From Clostridia bacterium (GTDB lineage: Bacteria; Bacillota; Clostridia; Monoglobales; Monoglobaceae): a DNA stretch of 64,000 bases. The translations under genes were made by a program, and so were the position numbers. The notes beneath the pieces were generated by a model. The model made no database searches, was not told the origin of the DNA, and worked only from the letters and a program-made list of their open reading frames with translations. Positions 755 to 11,249 of the stretch are shown in pieces (the first letter of the stretch is position 1; each line of letters opens with the position of its first letter). The DNA is taken from the NCBI GenBank assembly GCA_017620615.1, contig JAGAUW010000006.1, positions 1 through 64,000 on the forward strand, in the 5' to 3' direction.

Positions 755-814
755 CGTTACGGGGTGTTGAAAAAAAGGCCTAGCTATGATACAATGGCTA
801 AAGAGGTGAATATC

Positions 815-1267
815 GTGAAAATTGTTTTACAAAGAGTTTCAAGTGCAAAGGTAGAGGTTGAGGAAAATATTGTTGGAGAAATCGGAAAAGGCTATCTTTT
901 GCTTTTGGGCGTTTCAAATGAGGATACAAAAGAAATTGCGGAAAAGATGATTGAAAAGGTCGCAAAGCTCCGGATTTTTGAGGATAGTGAGGGAAAGACA
1001 AATCTCAATATAGATGCGGTTGAGGGCGAGGTTTTGGTGGTTTCGCAGTTTACTTTGTATGCTGATTGCAGAAAAGGTAACAGGCCCAGCTTTATAAATG
1101 CAGGGGCTCCGCAGATGGCAGAGGAGCTTTATGAATATGTGCTCATGAGGTGCAGCGAGCTTTTCAGAAACACAGAGTGCGGAATTTTTGGTGCTGATAT
1201 GAAGGTGTCGCTTGTGAATGACGGACCGTTCACCATAGTTCTTGATAGTAAGGAAATTTTGGCATGA
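815..1267 (+). CDS. dtd: D-aminoacyl-tRNA deacylase
   Basis: DTD hydrolyses D-aminoacyl-tRNAs (and mischarged glycyl-tRNA-Ala) in the cytoplasm, recycling tRNA and keeping D-residues out of protein. The product is 150 residues, the normal family length. Both family signatures are present: SQFT at 77-80 and the Gly-cisPro loop DGPFT at 136-140, which rejects L-amino acids. I chose GTG 815 because AGAGGTGAA (802-810) sits just upstream and the protein then begins MKIVLQRV, as in the family. A longer reading from 725 would run through the terminator hairpin at 727-754. The stop overlaps the start of the next gene, so the two are probably translationally coupled. Confidence 0.95.
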
Positions 1268-1818
1268 TGACGAAAGCTGAGATAAGAAAGATAAATAAAG
1301 AAAAACGCAAGCTGATGACGGAGGCAGAGGTAAAAGAAAAAAGCCTTGCCATAGCCAAGACTTTTCTGGATAGTGAAATATATAAAAATGCAAAAACAAT
1401 AATGGTTTATATGCCCATTGGGAATGAGGTTGACACTAAAGAGATAATTGCATCAGCGCTTTCTGATGGAAAAAGAATTATTGTTCCGGTGACAGATGCG
1501 AAAACAGGGGAAATAACCCCTTGTGAAATAAATGAAAATACCGCTTTTGAAAAAGGTGCATTTTCAGTTTTTGAGCCGGTTGAAAAAGTGCCGGCAGACC
1601 CGCCACAGATAGATGTGGTTTTGGTGCCGGGGATTGCCTTTGACAAAAAAGGCGGGCGGATCGGCTTTGGAAAGGGCTGTTATGACCGCTTTTTGAAAAA
1701 GATGGAGGCGTTTAAAATTGGCTTATGCTATGACTTTCAACTGTGTGATGAAATAGAGGCAGAAAGCCATGATATAAAAATGGATTTTGTGATTACCGAA
1801 AAAGTGAATAGTATTTGA
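1264..1818 (+). CDS. 5-formyltetrahydrofolate cyclo-ligase
   Basis: This enzyme converts 5-formyl-THF to 5,10-methenyl-THF with ATP, returning the stored folate to one-carbon metabolism. It has 184 residues, typical of the family. The diagnostic C-terminal motif [19 protein letters not shown] is at residues 126-144, and basic residues near the N-terminus (KEKRK) fit the ATP/folate site. ATG 1264 overlaps the dtd stop (ATGATGA); ATG 1267 is an equally possible start one codon later. A bidirectional hairpin follows at 1828-1862. The YgfA/YqgN assignment is family-level and firm. Confidence 0.94.
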
Positions 1819-1827
1819 TTTGGGATA

Positions 1828-1862
1828 AAAAAACACCATCCAATATTTTGGATGGTGTTTTT
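1828..1862. terminator. Bidirectional intrinsic terminator
   Basis: A perfect 13-bp stem AAACACCATCCAA / TTGGATGGTGTTT has a TATT loop and is flanked by T runs on both strands. It lies between the convergent ends of the cyclo-ligase gene (1818) and the secreted-protein gene (1899), so it can end both transcripts. Confidence 0.9.
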
Positions 1863-1898
1863 ATGTTTGTATGTGGCTTAGTTGGTAAATATCTTAAA

Positions 1899-2963
1899 TC
1901 ATTGAACGGAATCAAGAAAACTTTTAACAATAATTACATCGACAGGTATATTTTCGTAAGTTCTAACATATACATGGTCTGCACATTTCATAGCGGCAAG
2001 TCTGTTTTCTGCTATGCTCATGTCATCGGTTTCAGTTGTTGTACCATACACGTCGGTTAAAGTCAAAGTGCCACCTGTTGTTTTATATAAAGGAGAAAAG
2101 TACTGAAAGCTTGCAACTGAACTATTTTCTATTTTAAGATTTCTACCAGTATTATCAACAACATAAATGTTTTTTGCTTTAGAAAGTTTATATTCTCTTC
2201 CGTCAATGGTTGCTATATCTTTACTATCATCAAAAGATGTTACAACTCCTCCTGCCAAAGTTTCATCAGGGTTGGTTATTATGTATGCATCATCACCAGT
2301 TGCGAGTGAAACAGGCTCGTTGTTTTCATAATTAAAGGGAAGCCTAACATCCCATGGAAAATCCCAAATATACTTTATTGATGAAATCGTATCGTTTGAA
2401 TCAAATTCAAGTTTTACTACATCACCAGGATTTAAACGTGAATAATTATTAAATAAGTCGCTAGTTGTTTCTTTAGCAGGAAACTCTTCTCCATTCATGC
2501 GGAAGGAGATAAATAGTGTTTCGTTTCCATCGGCATTGTATCCCATGCCATATTCTGTAATAACAGCAAGACATGAGGGTTTTGACTCAACAGTTCCGCT
2601 CAGAGATATGTTAAGCGGCTTGAGGGTATTGAGAGTATCCCAGAAAAAGATTTTTGCGGGGCAATTAAGATAGCTTTGGTATCCGCTCAAAGAAATGCTG
2701 AAATCGGTGGCGGTTGAGGGGGAAGATTTATATGTAACGTTTAAAAGCCTTTCTGAATTATCATACACCGCCAGTATCACAGTGCAGTCAAGGACAGCAT
2801 CAAAGGTCATTTTTGCGGTAACAGTTTCCCCGGTGCCGTTACAAACAATGCTTTTGAGAGTTACATTGCTTGGCAAGACGTCGTTCGCTGCCGCAATTGG
2901 CGCAACAGACATAGCGATAAGAAGTATCGAAATGATAAGTAGTATGCTTATAAATTTTTTCAT
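1899..2963 (-). CDS. Secreted protein of unknown function
   Basis: This 354-residue protein has a classic signal peptide: KK at positions 2-3, a hydrophobic core to about residue 18, then APIAAAND, giving likely cleavage near residue 26. The mature part is rich in Ser, Thr, Asn and Asp with beta-strand character and contains no recognised catalytic motif. It resembles the non-enzymatic parts of clostridial surface proteins, but I see no SLH repeat, LPXTG motif or choline-binding repeat, so it may be released. The start at 2963 is supported by AGGAGGG a few bases upstream. Its promoter (2994-3022) is close to consensus and has a perfect dyad in its spacer. The divergent XRE gene is the natural candidate repressor. 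Function unknown. Confidence 0.85.
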   Translation of the reverse strand: MKKFISILLIISILLIAMSVAPIAAANDVLPSNVTLKSIVCNGTGETVTAKMTFDAVLDCTVILAVYDNSERLLNVTYKSSPSTATDFSISLSGYQSYLNCPAKIFFWDTLNTLKPLNISLSGTVESKPSCLAVITEYGMGYNADGNETLFISFRMNGEEFPAKETTSDLFNNYSRLNPGDVVKLEFDSNDTISSIKYIWDFPWDVRLPFNYENNEPVSLATGDDAYIITNPDETLAGGVVTSFDDSKDIATIDGREYKLSKAKNIYVVDNTGRNLKIENSSVASFQYFSPLYKTTGGTLTLTDVYGTTTETDDMSIAENRLAAMKCADHVYVRTYENIPVDVIIVKSFLDSVQ

Positions 2964-2993
2964 AAAAGGTCCCTCCTGGAAGTATTTTACAGT

Positions 2994-3022
2994 ATTATAA
3001 CATATTTTGGAAAATATGTCTA
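2994..3022 (-). promoter_or_regulatory. SigA-type promoter of the secreted-protein gene with an operator dyad in the spacer
   Basis: Read on the minus strand, -35 TAGACA (3017-3022) and -10 TATAAT (2994-2999) are separated by exactly 17 bp. The perfect inverted repeat ACATATTTT-N2-AAAATATGT (3000-3019) fills the spacer and touches both hexamers. A protein bound there would exclude RNA polymerase. The promoter elements and dyad are directly visible; repression is inferred. Confidence 0.75.
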
Positions 3023-3056
3023 CTGTATGTTAATAATATTACTTAACAACATTATA

Positions 3057-3069
3057 GGACAATATGTCC
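3057..3069. promoter_or_regulatory. Second dyad upstream of the XRE gene
   Basis: GGACA-ATA-TGTCC is an inverted repeat located 52 bases before the XRE start. It shares the half-site AATATGTC (3061-3068) with the dyad in the divergent promoter (AAATATGTC, 3012-3020). This suggests that one protein binds both, with autoregulation at this copy. Confidence 0.5.
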
Positions 3070-3120
3070 ATAATGTCAATAAAAATATGCAGAATGCTAT
3101 ATAATTTTATTGGTGATAAT

Positions 3121-3348
3121 ATGGTTATGAAGTTGAGAATACGAGATTTGAGGGAAGATAATGACTTAACACAGAAAGCTGTTGCAAAGCATTTGATGTG
3201 TGACCAATCATTATATTCAAAGTATGAAAGAGGGGAAAGGGAAATACCTCTTAAGCTTGTTGTTGAGCTTGCGAAGTTTTATAACGTCAGTGTTGATTAT
3301 CTTGTAGGTCTTACTGATGAAAATATGTCATATTGCCGAAAAGTATAG
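3121..3348 (+). CDS. Small XRE-family DNA-binding regulator
   Basis: The 75-residue protein is essentially one Cro/C1-type helix-turn-helix domain (about residues 6-62). The recognition region is around LTQKAVAKHLMCDQSLYSKY, followed by the family's ERGEREIPL turn and the terminal FYNVSVDYLVGLTD helix. ATG 3121 follows GGTG at 3112-3115 and gives the usual short N-terminus; an in-frame upstream codon at 3064 would lie inside the dyad region. It is transcribed away from the secreted-protein gene and has its own terminator. A single-domain repressor beside one target gene is the simplest reading. No sensing domain is present, so how it would be relieved is unknown. Confidence 0.85.
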   Translation: MVMKLRIRDLREDNDLTQKAVAKHLMCDQSLYSKYERGEREIPLKLVVELAKFYNVSVDYLVGLTDENMSYCRKV

Positions 3349-3397
3349 ATGAATATTTTCTTGTAGTGGTAAATATTCAGATTTTGTGTCGCATAAA

Positions 3398-3453
3398 AAA
3401 CCGACCTCCCAATCGTTAGGTTTCTGGTCTAACTTTTGGGGGTCGGTTTATTT
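3398..3453 (+). terminator. Terminator after the XRE gene
   Basis: A long hairpin has outer arms AAACCGACCTCCCAA (3398-3412) and TTTTGGGGGTCGGTTT (3434-3449), and an inner stem GTTAG/CTAAC. It ends in TTTATTT. It isolates the XRE gene from the downstream GntR operon. Confidence 0.75.
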
Positions 3454-3481
3454 CTAGGCTATATTTTTTTGAAAAAATCTC

Positions 3482-6986: not shown

Positions 6987-8345
6987 TCACATGGGCAAAA
7001 AGCTCATTGCGATTTCAAAATAGATGAGGAGAGAAATTGCATCGACGATTGTTGTGACAAAGGGGCTTGCTGTAACTGCCGGGTCAAAGCCAAGCCTTTT
7101 TACCAAGATAGGCAGGCTACAGCCCACGAGCTTTGCGCAGATTACGGTAACAAGAAGAGTCAGGGAAACGATGATTGAAATAACAACAGGGTCTTGACCT
7201 GATGACAGGATTGAACCATAGTCAACAAGCATCATTTTGCCGAAATTGACAATTCCTAAAGCCAAGCCGCAAAGGATAGAAGTAAAAAGTTCTTTGCGCA
7301 AAACCTTGAAAATATCTTTCATAGTTATGTCATTAAGTGAAAGACTGCGGATAATAGTAACAGATGCCTGACCGCCGGAGTTTCCGCCGGTACCCATGAG
7401 CATTGGAATAAATGCAGTGAGCACAACGCATACCGAAAGCATACTTTCAAAGGAGCTTATAATTTTTCCTGTAAAGGTGGAAGAAATCATAAGGAGCAAA
7501 AGCCAGGGGATTCTGTTTTTGAATGTGTCCCATACTGACGTTTTCAGGTACGGTTTTTCTGAAGGCAAGATAGCTGCCATCTTCTCAATATCCTCGGTGT
7601 GTTCTTCCTGAATGACGTCGATTACATCGTCAAAGGTGATGATTCCAACAAGTCGGGTTTCCTTATCAACCACCGGCATAGCAAGAAGGTCATATTTGCG
7701 GAAAAGGTTTGCAACATTTTCCTTATCTTCAAAGGTGTCAACAAAAATGACGTTTGTTTCCATCATTTCACCGATTTGTTTGCAGTTGTTACAGAGCAGC
7801 AAATCCTTGACGGTGGTGTACCCAAGAAGATGACGGTTTTTGTCCGTTACATAGCAGGTGTAAATTGTTTCTTTGTCAACACCAGTTGCACGAATACGTT
7901 CGAACGCCTCGGTCACGGTCATGTCGGCTTTGAGGTTTACATACTCAATGGTCATAATGCTTCCGGCACTGTCTTTTGGGTAATTGAGAATTCTATTTAT
8001 TTCAGACCTTGTCTGTGGGTCTGACTGCCGCAGTATTCGCTTGACAACGTTTGCAGGCATTTCTTCAATAATATCAACAGTGTCATCTACGTACATTTCG
8101 TCAAGGACATCACGAAGCTCCTTGTCGCTGAAGCACTTCAAGAGATGCTCCTGCGTGTCCGGGTCCATTTCGACAAAGGTGTCTGCGGCAAGCTCTTTTG
8201 GAAGGAGACGGAAAAGCCTGAGAACGTGTTCCTCAGGAAGCTCGTCATACATCAATGCAATATCAGGGGCGTTCATTTCGGAGAGGGTATTTCGCAGCTT
8301 AACAAATTCCTTATTTTCAATCAGTGTCAAAATTTCTTCAAACAT
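6987..8345 (-). CDS. mgtE: Magnesium transporter MgtE
   Basis: MgtE is a homodimeric Mg2+ channel gated by cytoplasmic Mg2+. The 452-residue protein has the standard layout. An N-domain of helical repeats occupies about residues 1-125, two CBS domains lie at about 130-255 (AGSIMTIEYVNL and GIITFDDVIDVI edges), and five membrane helices lie after about 280. The pore signatures TGGNSGGQA and FDPAVTASPFVTT are present, including the ion-binding Asp. I chose ATG 8345 because the protein then starts MFEEILTLIE, as in the family, with a GGGGG ribosome site. An upstream in-frame ATG at 8456 lies inside the riboswitch. Expression is controlled by the M-box and terminator upstream. Confidence 0.96.
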   Translation of the reverse strand: MFEEILTLIENKEFVKLRNTLSEMNAPDIALMYDELPEEHVLRLFRLLPKELAADTFVEMDPDTQEHLLKCFSDKELRDVLDEMYVDDTVDIIEEMPANVVKRILRQSDPQTRSEINRILNYPKDSAGSIMTIEYVNLKADMTVTEAFERIRATGVDKETIYTCYVTDKNRHLLGYTTVKDLLLCNNCKQIGEMMETNVIFVDTFEDKENVANLFRKYDLLAMPVVDKETRLVGIITFDDVIDVIQEEHTEDIEKMAAILPSEKPYLKTSVWDTFKNRIPWLLLLMISSTFTGKIISSFESMLSVCVVLTAFIPMLMGTGGNSGGQASVTIIRSLSLNDITMKDIFKVLRKELFTSILCGLALGIVNFGKMMLVDYGSILSSGQDPVVISIIVSLTLLVTVICAKLVGCSLPILVKRLGFDPAVTASPFVTTIVDAISLLIYFEIAMSFLPM

Positions 8346-8387
8346 ACAAAAAACCCCCCATTTCAAAGTATTTTTTAAAAATAAAAT

Positions 8388-8420
8388 CCCTGTGTCAAAG
8401 AAAGGAACAATGACACAGGG
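8388..8420 (-). terminator. Riboswitch-controlled terminator of mgtE
   Basis: On the minus strand the stem CCCTGTGTCA / TGACACAGGG is followed by ATTTTATTTTT. It sits between the M-box aptamer and the mgtE start, where the expression platform is expected: high Mg2+ should favour this hairpin and stop transcription. Confidence 0.88.
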
Positions 8421-8437
8421 AAAAATATATCCAAAGA

Positions 8438-8595
8438 AAACGATGTCACCGTTCAAGCTTTAGCTTCGCAGGGCGATGAAATTGCGTTAGACGATACCTT
8501 GTGTTCGATATTGCCTGTTCAACCATCTTGTGGTGTCTCCACCATGTCGCGGCAGCAATCCGTATCCCTGTGGTAGCCTTACCTACCGGAATTAT
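8438..8595 (-). promoter_or_regulatory. M-box (ykoK leader) magnesium riboswitch
   Basis: The minus strand carries the conserved M-box blocks in order: GGTAGGTAAGGCTACC (8572-8587), GGATACGG followed by GCTGCCGCG (8549-8557), and near the 3' side GCGAAGCTAAAGCTTGAAC. These match the GTTAGGTGAGGCT, GCTGCC and GCTAAAGCT blocks of the Bacillus ykoK/mgtE leader. M-box RNA folds around several Mg2+ ions and turns off Mg2+ importer genes. The downstream gene is mgtE and a terminator follows the aptamer, so the assignment is secure. The outer borders are approximate. Confidence 0.93.
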
Positions 8596-8604
8596 CTTTC
8601 ATAT

Positions 8605-8633
8605 ATTATAACTCAAAAAGTATGATTTGTCAA
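8605..8633 (-). promoter_or_regulatory. Consensus SigA promoter of the mgtE transcript
   Basis: The minus strand shows -35 TTGACA (8628-8633) and -10 TATAAT (8605-8610) with a 17-bp spacer, a perfect consensus. Transcription should start near 8598, just before the M-box. The -35 box lies about ten bases from the stop of the upstream SLH gene (8637). Confidence 0.92.
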
Positions 8634-8636
8634 CAG

Positions 8637-11213
8637 TTACATTGAAGAGTATAAAATCTTGGCGGCTTCAGCCTTTGTAAGTGGGTTAAGCGGCTTGAAA
8701 CTTTGGTCTTCATATCCCCTCATAGCCCCAATATTCGTAAGTGTAAGAATTCCGTCCATTGCCCATGCGGGAATGTCCTCTTTGTCCGTGGCGGTGATTT
8801 CGCCCTTGAAAAAACCACCAGGCAGGGTTCTTGCAACGATCGTTGCAGCTTCAGCACGGCTGATTGAGGAAAGTGGGTCAGCACAGCTTTCGGTGTCGCT
8901 CACGTATCTGCCTTTCAAGATGCCAAGCTCATAAAGAACTTTGAAGCTGTCAAGTGCCCAGAACGGAATTTCTTCGAGGTCGGTATAAGGAAGAATTACG
9001 TCCTGATATTTGGTCTTGTCAACTCTTAGATAGTTTGTTACCATAACGGCAAATTCAGAGCGCGTCATAGCCTTTTGCGGATTGAAACGGAGTTCATCAC
9101 CCACCATTTCGCCGTTTATAATATTTTGAGATTTCATATACCTCAGAATGTCATCCGCCCAATGCCCTGCGGTGTCTGAAAATGCTCCGGAGGGGTATGA
9201 TGCTTTGAACATGTCAAAGGTTTTGAAAGTGGTATACCCTAAGATATTTGATGCAATAACGGTAACTTTTTTAACACCAACTGGTATTTTAGCGGTGAAC
9301 TCTCCTGTTTCAGCATTGTAGGAAAACCCTGTTTCATTACCATCCGCACGAATCAAAATGCCATCAGCTGTGGTAGGAATGTTGTATTCGCATGAAATTT
9401 TGCCCGTAAAAGTTCCAAGAGTATATGCTGTATCAACAATAATCGGGTAGGATTTCGGGTCATTTGCATCAGCGGGGGTGAGAGTTATCGGGATAGAAAC
9501 TGTTTTGTTGCCTGCTGAAATGTTTATATTTCCTGTTTCGCCATAATTGTCTGATGCTGTGAATACAAATTTTTCGTTTATGCTGCCGATATTCTCATCG
9601 GCGTCCCAAGTAAAGTTTTCATCACTTGATACAAGCCGGTTATATCCGCCATAAGCCTCTGCGGTCAGTGAAACCGTATCGCCGGGGTTAAGATTTAGTG
9701 AGGTAATATACTTTCCGCTGTTTTTGTCCTTGATTCTTATGTCGGTGGGGGTAGAAAGACATACTATTGATGTGGATGAGGAAACATCTCCGCTTTCTGC
9801 ATAGACTGTGACTGTCCCGCTATCTTTTGCGGTAAAGATGCCATCCTTCGTGATAGTACTGTTTTTTCCATCCTGAATGCTGAAAGCAACATTTTTTGGC
9901 ACATCAACAGGGTAAAAGCCGGAGTCAGTGGCTTTTAGGGTCAGCTTTGTGCTTGCTCCTGTTAAAACATAGTTTGTCAAAGGATAAATATGAAGATTTG
10001 CAAGTTTGCCGGTTTTTTCTGCGGTATTAGTGAAAATAATGTGAGTCGAAAGCTTGCGTTCCTTCCCATCAGAGGGCTTGTTCATAAGACTTGCGGTTTC
10101 GTTTCCGGGTAGCTGAGTGGAAATTGCGGTTGAGCCACCGCCGTCAAGGTTGAGAGCTTCTATGCAGCCAAGTTCCTTCATTCGCTTTGCCAGAGTTTTA
10201 AGCTGAACCCCATAGCTGTGACCACTTTGACGTCCGTCGATGGTATAGAGAATTATTTCGCCATTTTCGGTTATACCGATAGCTGTTCTTGGTGCAGCAC
10301 CTGTGCCAAGATTTGGATTTACTTCGCCATCTATGAGAAGTCGTCCGCCAACAGACCCCATACCGCAAATAACGTCATTCCAACGTTTATCACCGCTGAC
10401 GCTGAAATGGATGGTCACGGTCTCCCCTTCGACAAGGGTGGATATGGGATTCAAAAACTCTTCGGGAGCTTTTTTGTCAACGGTGAGAACTATTTTTCCC
10501 TTCGGTATAGGGATGGAGGAAGAATTTTCGCTTATTGATTCCACAACTGCGGTAAGCTTTGACCCAAGCTTCATTTCACCATCAATGGGATTTAAAATTA
10601 CGTCAATTCCTTCGGTGGTGTTCTGGGTCTGGTCCGAAAACTGGGAAGTCATCATATATGCAGAATAGGGCTGGCGGTATTTGTTTATGTTGTAGATGTT
10701 AAGTTCGCTGCCGTCTTCTTTTTGCAAAACAGAATTGAGATAAAAATACGAAATGAATGCGGTTCCGTCAGGCAAAATGCCAATTCCATCCTGACCTGAG
10801 GCGTCTTTTGTGAGAATTTTTCCGTCAACTATTGCATTGCTCATAGGTACAAGGGTCTGGAGAGAAAAATAATCAGCATTTGTTCCTGCTAAAACGTCCC
10901 TGCCCTCTTTTTCAAAAAGTGAAATCTGGTTTGAGAGGGTGTTCCCGCCATAAAGTGTATCGCCATAAGTGATGGTGGGAAAGACCGCATCGTTTGGGGT
11001 GTATGTTATATAGTTTTCGCTTTGTTTGCCTACACCCGACTGGTCACTGAAAAACAGGTTATGGGTGAAATGGAGACCCTCACCTATTTTGACAGAATAA
11101 CCGTCAATTTTTGTGCTGCCCAAAGTGGAGGCAAGACTACTAAGCGGTGACAAAACAAGGCTCGCCGCGAGAAAAGTGCTGTATAAAATTTTTGTCAGTA
11201 TTTTTGTTTTCAT
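8637..11213 (-). CDS. SLH-domain surface protein with a phosphodiester glycosidase (NAGPA-like) domain
   Basis: The 858-residue secreted protein is anchored by S-layer homology domains. In order it has a signal peptide (about 1-30, ending SSLASTL), then a DUF2233/NAGPA-type domain recognised by PRTAIGITENGEII, YTIDGRQSG, GVQLKTLAKRM and LNLDGGGSTA. Beta-rich Ig-like segments follow, and three SLH repeats (AFSDTAGHWADDIL, DLEEIPFWALDS, DIPAWAMDGILTL) bind secondary cell-wall polysaccharide. NAGPA relatives remove GlcNAc from phosphodiesters; here the likely target is an envelope polymer such as a teichoic-acid-like glycan, which is inference. ATG 11213 gives AGGA an 11-base spacing; ATG 11225 would overlap that site. 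Confidence 0.9.
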   Translation of the reverse strand: MKTKILTKILYSTFLAASLVLSPLSSLASTLGSTKIDGYSVKIGEGLHFTHNLFFSDQSGVGKQSENYITYTPNDAVFPTITYGDTLYGGNTLSNQISLFEKEGRDVLAGTNADYFSLQTLVPMSNAIVDGKILTKDASGQDGIGILPDGTAFISYFYLNSVLQKEDGSELNIYNINKYRQPYSAYMMTSQFSDQTQNTTEGIDVILNPIDGEMKLGSKLTAVVESISENSSSIPIPKGKIVLTVDKKAPEEFLNPISTLVEGETVTIHFSVSGDKRWNDVICGMGSVGGRLLIDGEVNPNLGTGAAPRTAIGITENGEIILYTIDGRQSGHSYGVQLKTLAKRMKELGCIEALNLDGGGSTAISTQLPGNETASLMNKPSDGKERKLSTHIIFTNTAEKTGKLANLHIYPLTNYVLTGASTKLTLKATDSGFYPVDVPKNVAFSIQDGKNSTITKDGIFTAKDSGTVTVYAESGDVSSSTSIVCLSTPTDIRIKDKNSGKYITSLNLNPGDTVSLTAEAYGGYNRLVSSDENFTWDADENIGSINEKFVFTASDNYGETGNINISAGNKTVSIPITLTPADANDPKSYPIIVDTAYTLGTFTGKISCEYNIPTTADGILIRADGNETGFSYNAETGEFTAKIPVGVKKVTVIASNILGYTTFKTFDMFKASYPSGAFSDTAGHWADDILRYMKSQNIINGEMVGDELRFNPQKAMTRSEFAVMVTNYLRVDKTKYQDVILPYTDLEEIPFWALDSFKVLYELGILKGRYVSDTESCADPLSSISRAEAATIVARTLPGGFFKGEITATDKEDIPAWAMDGILTLTNIGAMRGYEDQSFKPLNPLTKAEAAKILYSSM

Positions 11214-11249
11214 AAATATGCACATCCTAAAAAATCTTTGTCGAATTTA

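Follow-up and report, generated by a model that had tools for sequence, protein, structure and literature searches.

A minimal XRE repressor gene with a probable operator in the spacer of a putative divergent promoter, in a small block ahead of a secreted-protein gene of a Clostridia bacterium

The locus lies in a stretch of 64,000 nucleotides from a Clostridia bacterium (hereafter the window, 64 kb), in which the gene of a small XRE-family protein and that of a secreted protein stand on opposite strands on either side of 157 intergenic bases (2964-3120). The following features are referred to below, with positions counted from the first base of the window.

1899-2963, minus strand: secreted-protein gene, 354 aa, signal peptide by a simple rule
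2994-3022, minus strand: P2 (TAGACA-N17-TATAAT), the promoter that belongs to the secreted gene itself; a TGT precedes the -10 (extended -10)
3000-3019, no strand: dyad 1, ACATATTTTCCAAAATATGT, a perfect 9+2+9 inverted repeat, probably no operator of the adjoining XRE
3027-3455, no strand: XRE block, approximate extent, between stretches carried by relatives without the block
3051-3079, minus strand: P_div, divergent promoter TTGACA-N17-TATAAT, a consensus match pointing toward the secreted gene
3057-3069, no strand: O1 (dyad 2), GGACAATATGTCC, GGAC-N5-GTCC (13 bp), probable XRE operator within the P_div spacer
3080-3099, plus strand: place of O2, a second operator in many relatives, none recognisable in the window
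3100-3105, plus strand: TATAAT, presumed -10 of the XRE promoter
3121-3348, plus strand: XRE gene, 75 aa, a single HTH_3 domain with helix CDQSLYSKYERG, without a sensor domain
3395-3452, plus strand: terminator-like inverted repeat 3' of the XRE gene, from a repeat search (I3)

The XRE open reading frame was judged to be real, with the ATG at 3121, preceded by GGTGA, as the likely start because the ATGs at 3064 and 3094 precede the presumed -10. The predicted protein matched the Cro/CI-type HTH_3 family (PF01381) with 56.6 bits against a cut-off of 23; the helix-turn-helix takes up residues 7-61 of 75 and the inducible C-terminal domain is absent, in agreement with the first-pass annotation, which had described a minimal single-domain repressor with no sensor. 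Its best match in NCBIfam was RstR (NF041951) with 52 bits, below the curated cut-off of 80 for membership. The secreted protein had no significant family in Pfam, NCBIfam or PHROGs, and an AlphaFold2 model from the single sequence gave a mean pLDDT of 43.5, too low for use in a fold search. Residues ~124-354 resemble a stretch of much longer open frames (~970-1630 aa) in the same genus and family (L038-L045, L047-L050), so that the protein may represent a shared surface-protein module.

Between the two genes, the spacer of P_div is filled by O1, reading TTGACA-TTATGGACATATTGTCC-TATAAT on the minus strand. This perfect promoter around dyad 2 (3079-3051) had been overlooked in the first-pass annotation. 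Counting both strands, only two perfect sigma-A consensus promoters with 17-bp spacing occur in the 64 kb, P_div among them. The other, at 8605-8633, starts 4 bases beyond the 3' end of an NAGPA/SLH gene (8637-11225, minus strand) and faces an open reading frame at 6987-8456 (minus strand). From the -10 of P_div to the ATG of the secreted gene there are 87 nt. O1 is the single exact copy of GGAC-N5-GTCC in the window, and its score of 16.2 bits with the O1 matrix was the best in the window and below that of all 32 training sites (minimum 24.0); it is without TA after GTCC. Toward the XRE gene, the presumed -10 follows TGTCAA by 20 nt and has, by eye, no good -35, and the intervening place of O2 (3080-3099) contains neither GGAC nor GTCC. 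Within the XRE coding sequence, at its 3' end, a third copy of TGAAAATATGTC was noted (3318-3329); it continues as AATATGTCATATT, a 6+1+6 dyad.

Relatives of the XRE protein were collected by scanning contigs from 84,980 species genomes, of which the best 80 of 246 matches were kept. Together with the window and 31 further loci these gave 112 upstream regions, the duplicates L001, L006 and L007 being left out. A narrower set of 60 genomes comprised the window's own and those of 59 relatives, and the 30 listed matches among them that were used were those with loci. Seen from the XRE side P_div reads ATTATA-N17-TGTCAA, and upstream regions passed as carrying the cassette at a score of 2 or less against this pattern. 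The cassette was found ahead of 87/112 XRE genes compared with 13/252 other genes of the same loci, leaving 25/112 XRE upstream regions without it, and with a palindromic spacer in addition in 51/112 against 0/252; these counts are not independent, as the loci were picked by similarity to the window's XRE and are related, a dependence for which the Mantel test given below corrects in part. Carriers of the layout were mostly Clostridia. The window itself passes, having a dyad of its class in the spacer of a divergent TTGACW-N17-TATAAT (3051-3079); the second operator O2, present in the XRE promoter of ~60% of relatives, is not recognised there. The earlier suggestion, that a minimal XRE repressor acts from an operator placed between the hexamers of a promoter facing an exported gene, fits in its general form the layout found at 87 of the 112 loci with exported genes over-represented opposite; it is not supported for dyad 1, which had been taken as the operator. 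Without the dyad, the layout matched at one mismatch or fewer in 52/60 genomes, the window's included, and is not diagnostic alone because most of the dyad-less matches, among those listed, resemble plain promoters.

The sequence of the dyad followed the recognition helix. XRE genes with the helix CDQSLYSKYER had an exact GGAC-N5-GTCC within 200 nt upstream in 37/40 cases including the window (shuffles: mean 0.02, maximum 1), compared with 0/41 for genes with other helices. One member of the group (L079) had been assigned by tblastn, and its helix was confirmed. The three misses (L060, L073 and L085) are explained by their upstream DNA being coding, as another XRE frame ends 7-25 nt ahead of each; this arrangement suggests two-repressor operons. 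Among the genes with other helices P_div was present within 200 nt, at two mismatches or fewer, in 32/41 (shuffles: mean 1.6, maximum 5). The flanks of the element, both sigma-A hexamers at 17 bp, stay constant while the enclosed dyad changes with the helix, as in the following classes.

Helix CSQQVYSNYELGQR: half-site CTGCA or CCGCA
Helix RQNTYSQYEN: half-site TCTCA or TCACA
Helix TTQQVYSRYEKG: half-site CACCA
Helix CSQRVYSNYERG: half-site GCGGA
Helix IHQTTYSDYELG: half-site AGGGA

Reduced to three helix positions, chosen by our own alignment to the 434 repressor, type QS/K went with GGAC in 32/32, QQ/N with C(T/C)GCA in 13/14 and QN/Q with TCACA or TCTCA in 8/10, and the four proteins of type QT/R had no consistent half-site. 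About nine helix types each have their own half-site, several of them represented by one or two proteins. Over 81 proteins, half-site and helix residues were correlated with a Mantel r of 0.72, and of 0.66 in a partial test given the rest of the protein, values as high being reached by 0/2000 permutations; the rest of the protein given the helix yielded 0.10. The half-site of O1 recurred in the 20 nt after TGTCAA, that is, in the XRE promoter, in 48/81 (control mean 5.4, maximum 11). From this pattern, O1 is the probable operator of the adjoining XRE protein.

Some loci depart from the common arrangement. At L002/L003 (G000:C16:5798-6216) two paralogous XRE genes in tandem face a divergent gene for a small protein of 77 aa that ends in GGCHDF, and the gap contains ATAAGTACTTAT-type repeats; a 75-aa divergent protein at L055 may be related to this protein. 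In a further class (L008, L011, L016, L018 and L020), with helix CNRQVYARYERG and TACCATATGGTA-like dyads, TGTCAA stands close ahead of the ribosome-binding site, a geometry that differs from that of the other classes.

The element could also be read as an extended recognition site of the XRE protein and no promoter at all, in which case XRE would regulate only itself and the divergent gene would be a bystander. Such a reading would fit the persistence of the layout at some loci without a close divergent frame: a divergent frame within 260 nt was present at 63 of the 87 cassette loci and missing at 24 by our home-made gene caller, some of the latter having one by a looser listing. It would also fit the lack of a common Pfam family among the divergent proteins. 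Of the 55 in the non-redundant set 50 were searched, L101, L117, L118, L120 and L022 being set aside because their frames are short or doubtful; four had BspA-type leucine-rich repeats and four a zinc ribbon. However, the flanks match both sigma-A hexamers at the spacing of a promoter and are unchanged while the dyad varies, and the divergent genes begin at promoter-like distances (17-63 nt from the -10 in 42 of the 63) and encode exported proteins disproportionately often. We therefore consider a pure recognition site quite unlikely and retain the divergent promoter. The window's secreted gene, 87 nt away, starts beyond the usual range.

Export was called with a simple signal-peptide and lipoprotein rule on home-made gene calls, in place of SignalP and a trained gene finder. 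By this rule 20/42 divergent genes (non-redundant, 80 aa or longer) encoded exported proteins; among the remaining genes at these loci the figure was 33/242 (Fisher 2.4e-6). Compared with other neighbours, the divergent genes (20/43) exceeded the genes 3' of XRE (8/79, p 1e-5) and the next genes beyond (13/59, p 0.011); those within 65 nt (12/29) differed from the next genes beyond at p 0.079. As the excess shrinks in the comparison with the next genes beyond, it may in part reflect the region.

The XRE gene, O1 and P_div together look like a separable unit. When relatives' loci were compared by blastn with the window's first 9 kb, G007 matched at 802-3040, the secreted-protein locus of G004 at 1874-3022 and its XRE locus at 3027-3320, while G002 matched from 3456 rightwards with 90% identity over a GntR gene and those following, with no XRE within 1.4 kb ahead of the GntR match. 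As relatives carry both flanks without it, the three elements form a block of ~0.3-0.4 kb. The genomes are drafts (estimated completeness 68% for G002, 82% for G044, 84% for G007 and 89% for G004), so absence of XRE is claimed for the places read. No target-site duplication was obvious among the repeats found in 2960-3480.

Full-length orthologs of the secreted protein were found in two of the 60 genomes, G007 (64% identity) and G004 (65%). The G007 gene has, 3' of it, the two neighbours that it has in the window, and is not preceded by XRE; the G004 gene (L036, G004:C28:2076-3122) has no adjoining XRE, the XRE of that genome lying on another contig with a different divergent gene. L036 has a TAA within its frame and may be a decaying gene. 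The closest XRE relatives among the 60 genomes were those of G004 (81% over 70 residues) and of G044, from another family (74%), in which the secreted protein had no match. Conservation of the gene pair, which the first-pass annotation had proposed to check in relatives, is thus lacking: XRE adjoins neither of the two orthologs found.

The same comparison bears on dyad 1. The first-pass annotation had correctly noted a perfect 9+9 dyad in the spacer of P2, although the repeat runs from the base next to the TATAAT (2999-2994) into the TAGACA (3022-3017) on the minus strand and takes in the ACA of the latter. It had also noted a second dyad before the XRE gene with the same half-site; that dyad exists, as O1, but its half-site is GGAC, and what the two share is AATATGTC, which is spacer plus half-site in O1. 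There are six copies of AATATGTC in the window against 2.07 expected, a count reached by 0/100 shuffles. If XRE repressed the secreted gene through dyad 1, the perfect symmetry, the location in a promoter spacer, the shared AATATGTC and a rank of 25 in the window with the O1 matrix (-6.9 bits) would be accounted for, as would the one spacer base that differs, toward symmetry, between the window, where XRE is present, and G007, where it is not. Dyad 1 has, however, two core mismatches to GGAC-N5-GTCC, and 123 positions of the window do as well or better; its 9+2+9 geometry is unlike the sites of XRE relatives. In the aligned promoters (window TAGACATATTTTCCAAAATATGTTATAAT, G007 TAGACATTTTTTCCAAAATATGTTATAAT, G004 TAGACTTTTTTCCATATATATGATATAA) P2 is retained in G007 and looser in G004, while the symmetry of dyad 1 is broken in the former and the dyad absent from the latter, so that the secreted gene and P2 can be kept without it, an outcome that the first-pass annotation had named as refuting its proposal. 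At this place the best matrix score was slightly higher in G007, without XRE beside the gene (-6.35 bits), than in the window, and far lower in G004 (-17.6 bits) despite its XRE ortholog. Unlike dyad 1, dyad 2 goes together with XRE in relatives. On the ortholog comparison and the matrix score dyad 1 was rejected as the XRE operator, and repression through it appears very unlikely, though the protein may bind there weakly.

The perfect symmetry within a promoter spacer might instead mark an operator for another, unlinked regulator of the secreted gene. This we regard as highly improbable, given that the dyad is conserved in neither ortholog and that perfect 9+9 dyads (loop 0-10) arose in 63/2000 dinucleotide shuffles of the 157 intergenic bases (~3%). 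It is only mildly unusual, because the whole window has eight such dyads compared with 1-7 in 10 shuffles. Its ends coincide with promoter elements, the ACA of the -35 and the TGT of the extended -10, and dyad 1 is probably a chance or promoter-derived palindrome, which could have arisen as a by-product of P2 from these two elements and the A/T tract between them.

A wider regulon was not supported, site counts being no higher than those of a reversed-pattern control. Each of 16 genomes carrying an XRE of this class contained 1-8 exact copies of AGGAC-N5-GTCCT (38 in total), compared with 0-8 (47 in total) for the control, and the sole site was that of the XRE locus in 6/16. In G044 the sole exact site lies outside the XRE locus, whose operators are imperfect. 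The window's genome had 14 sites at one mismatch or fewer against 46 for the control.

Relatives were also found in phages, raising the question of origin. By tblastn, 124 phage records contained relatives, all of less than 60% identity, and 8 of the 10 listed were examined. Four of the eight passed the cassette score, namely the inoviruses bajarodino virus 37, 42 and 43 and the fecal record L173; L173 and virus 42 alone also passed the palindrome cut of 0.8 (virus 37, 0.71; virus 43, 0.5). XRE blocks might accordingly be inovirus immunity switches that were left behind in the chromosome or recruited there, and that may still silence incoming phages with matching specificity. Bajarodino virus 37 and 42 have the same layout ahead of their repressor gene, RstR is the best NCBIfam match of the window's protein, and heteroimmunity would account for the many operator classes. 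A TAACATTTTGTTTTA operator is moreover common to chromosomal loci L010 and L017 and to L170 and L172, in which it occurs as paired TAACATTTTGTTTTA-like dyads; the latter are fecal contigs of putative phage, however, and the chromosomal matches are flagged with one stop each. Against this origin, the other four phage records, L170 and L172 among them, fail the score, and the window's block has as neighbours the genes for the secreted protein, GntR and ABC, none of which is a phage gene. In IMG/VR there was one weak XRE relative, and among 66 pattern matches for the GGAC class and 24 for the C(T/C)GCA class no such cassette was accompanied by an XRE, as judged by a loose regular expression; the one frame flagged in this way (L188) does not look XRE-like. 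Phages may also have acquired the block from their hosts. On balance we judge a phage-immunity identity of these blocks unlikely. The one plasmid relative examined, L178, also fails the cassette score.

We favour the reading, with a probability of roughly 0.75, that the XRE gene and its upstream DNA constitute an autonomous Cro/CI-type switch with one target, positioned ahead of a gene already served by a promoter of its own. Bound to O1 as a dimer, the 75-aa repressor would lie across the spacer of P_div and block RNA polymerase; in the many relatives with O2 within the XRE promoter the repressor would also limit its own synthesis, and in the window O2 would have decayed. The O1 and O2 sites would be the only evident targets of the repressor in its genome. 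The switch would move as a block and adopt whichever gene is divergent, often one for an exported protein. In the window the block would have landed before a secreted gene with P2, the outcome probably being tandem promoters of which P_div is repressible and P2 is not; the gene would be transcribed from P2 at all times, and P_div would contribute at low levels of repressor. Since the protein has no sensor domain, relief may come about when the repressor is diluted, degraded or lost, or through an antirepressor protein.

Read more broadly, the sequences hint at a large radiation, in gut Clostridia, of stand-alone repressors of ~65-85 aa with operators of their own and a two-operator divergent promoter, derived from or shared with inovirus immunity switches, which would travel as units a few hundred bases long and come to lie repeatedly before surface or secreted genes as mutually independent plug-in switches. 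We offer this tentatively, at less than even odds. If it is true, the target of many small XRE genes now annotated merely as helix-turn-helix regulators could be predicted as the divergent neighbour, and the operator could be read from the promoter spacer. The relation of helix to half-site would provide a test bed for rules of protein-DNA recognition, the loci would supply very small repressor-promoter pairs that are independent of one another, and phage immunity switches would be linked to the control of exported proteins in gut bacteria.

Searches of open-access PubMed Central listed no paper describing this layout, and several known systems resemble it in part. In the divergent switch of lambdoid phages, CI and Cro act from palindromic operators that overlap back-to-back promoters. 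The window shares with it an HTH_3 repressor, operators so placed (here by sequence only) and a half-site related to helix residues; for Cro, a correlation of helix with half-site was reportedly described by Hall, LeFevre and Cordes in 2005 (a reference in PMC4997575). The XRE cassette differs in having no C-terminal domain, a single evident target, a chromosomal location and a variable partner gene, and the window has no Cro-like second repressor, its divergent gene encoding a secreted protein without a helix-turn-helix match. Also comparable are the small XRE repressors of the RstR family of filamentous phages, and the inoviruses above share the layout ahead of their repressor gene; RstR and rstA of CTXphi are said to be treated by Kimsey and Waldor in 2004. 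Here the window differs by the sub-threshold score of its XRE and by a partner that is not a phage gene.

Two further likenesses are by description. The Xre-family repressor VanU(G) of the vanG operon acts at a promoter with a 17-bp spacer, on a pair of neighbouring imperfect palindromes, and represses both itself and a second promoter. Its gene, unlike that of the window's XRE, shares a transcript with a two-component system, and VanR(G) displaces the protein (PMC4405338). Pf4r of the filamentous phage Pf4 is likewise a small repressor, with a role in immunity, and differs in its 46 ChIP-seq peaks, compared with no evident extra sites for the XRE protein of the window (PMC8402870).
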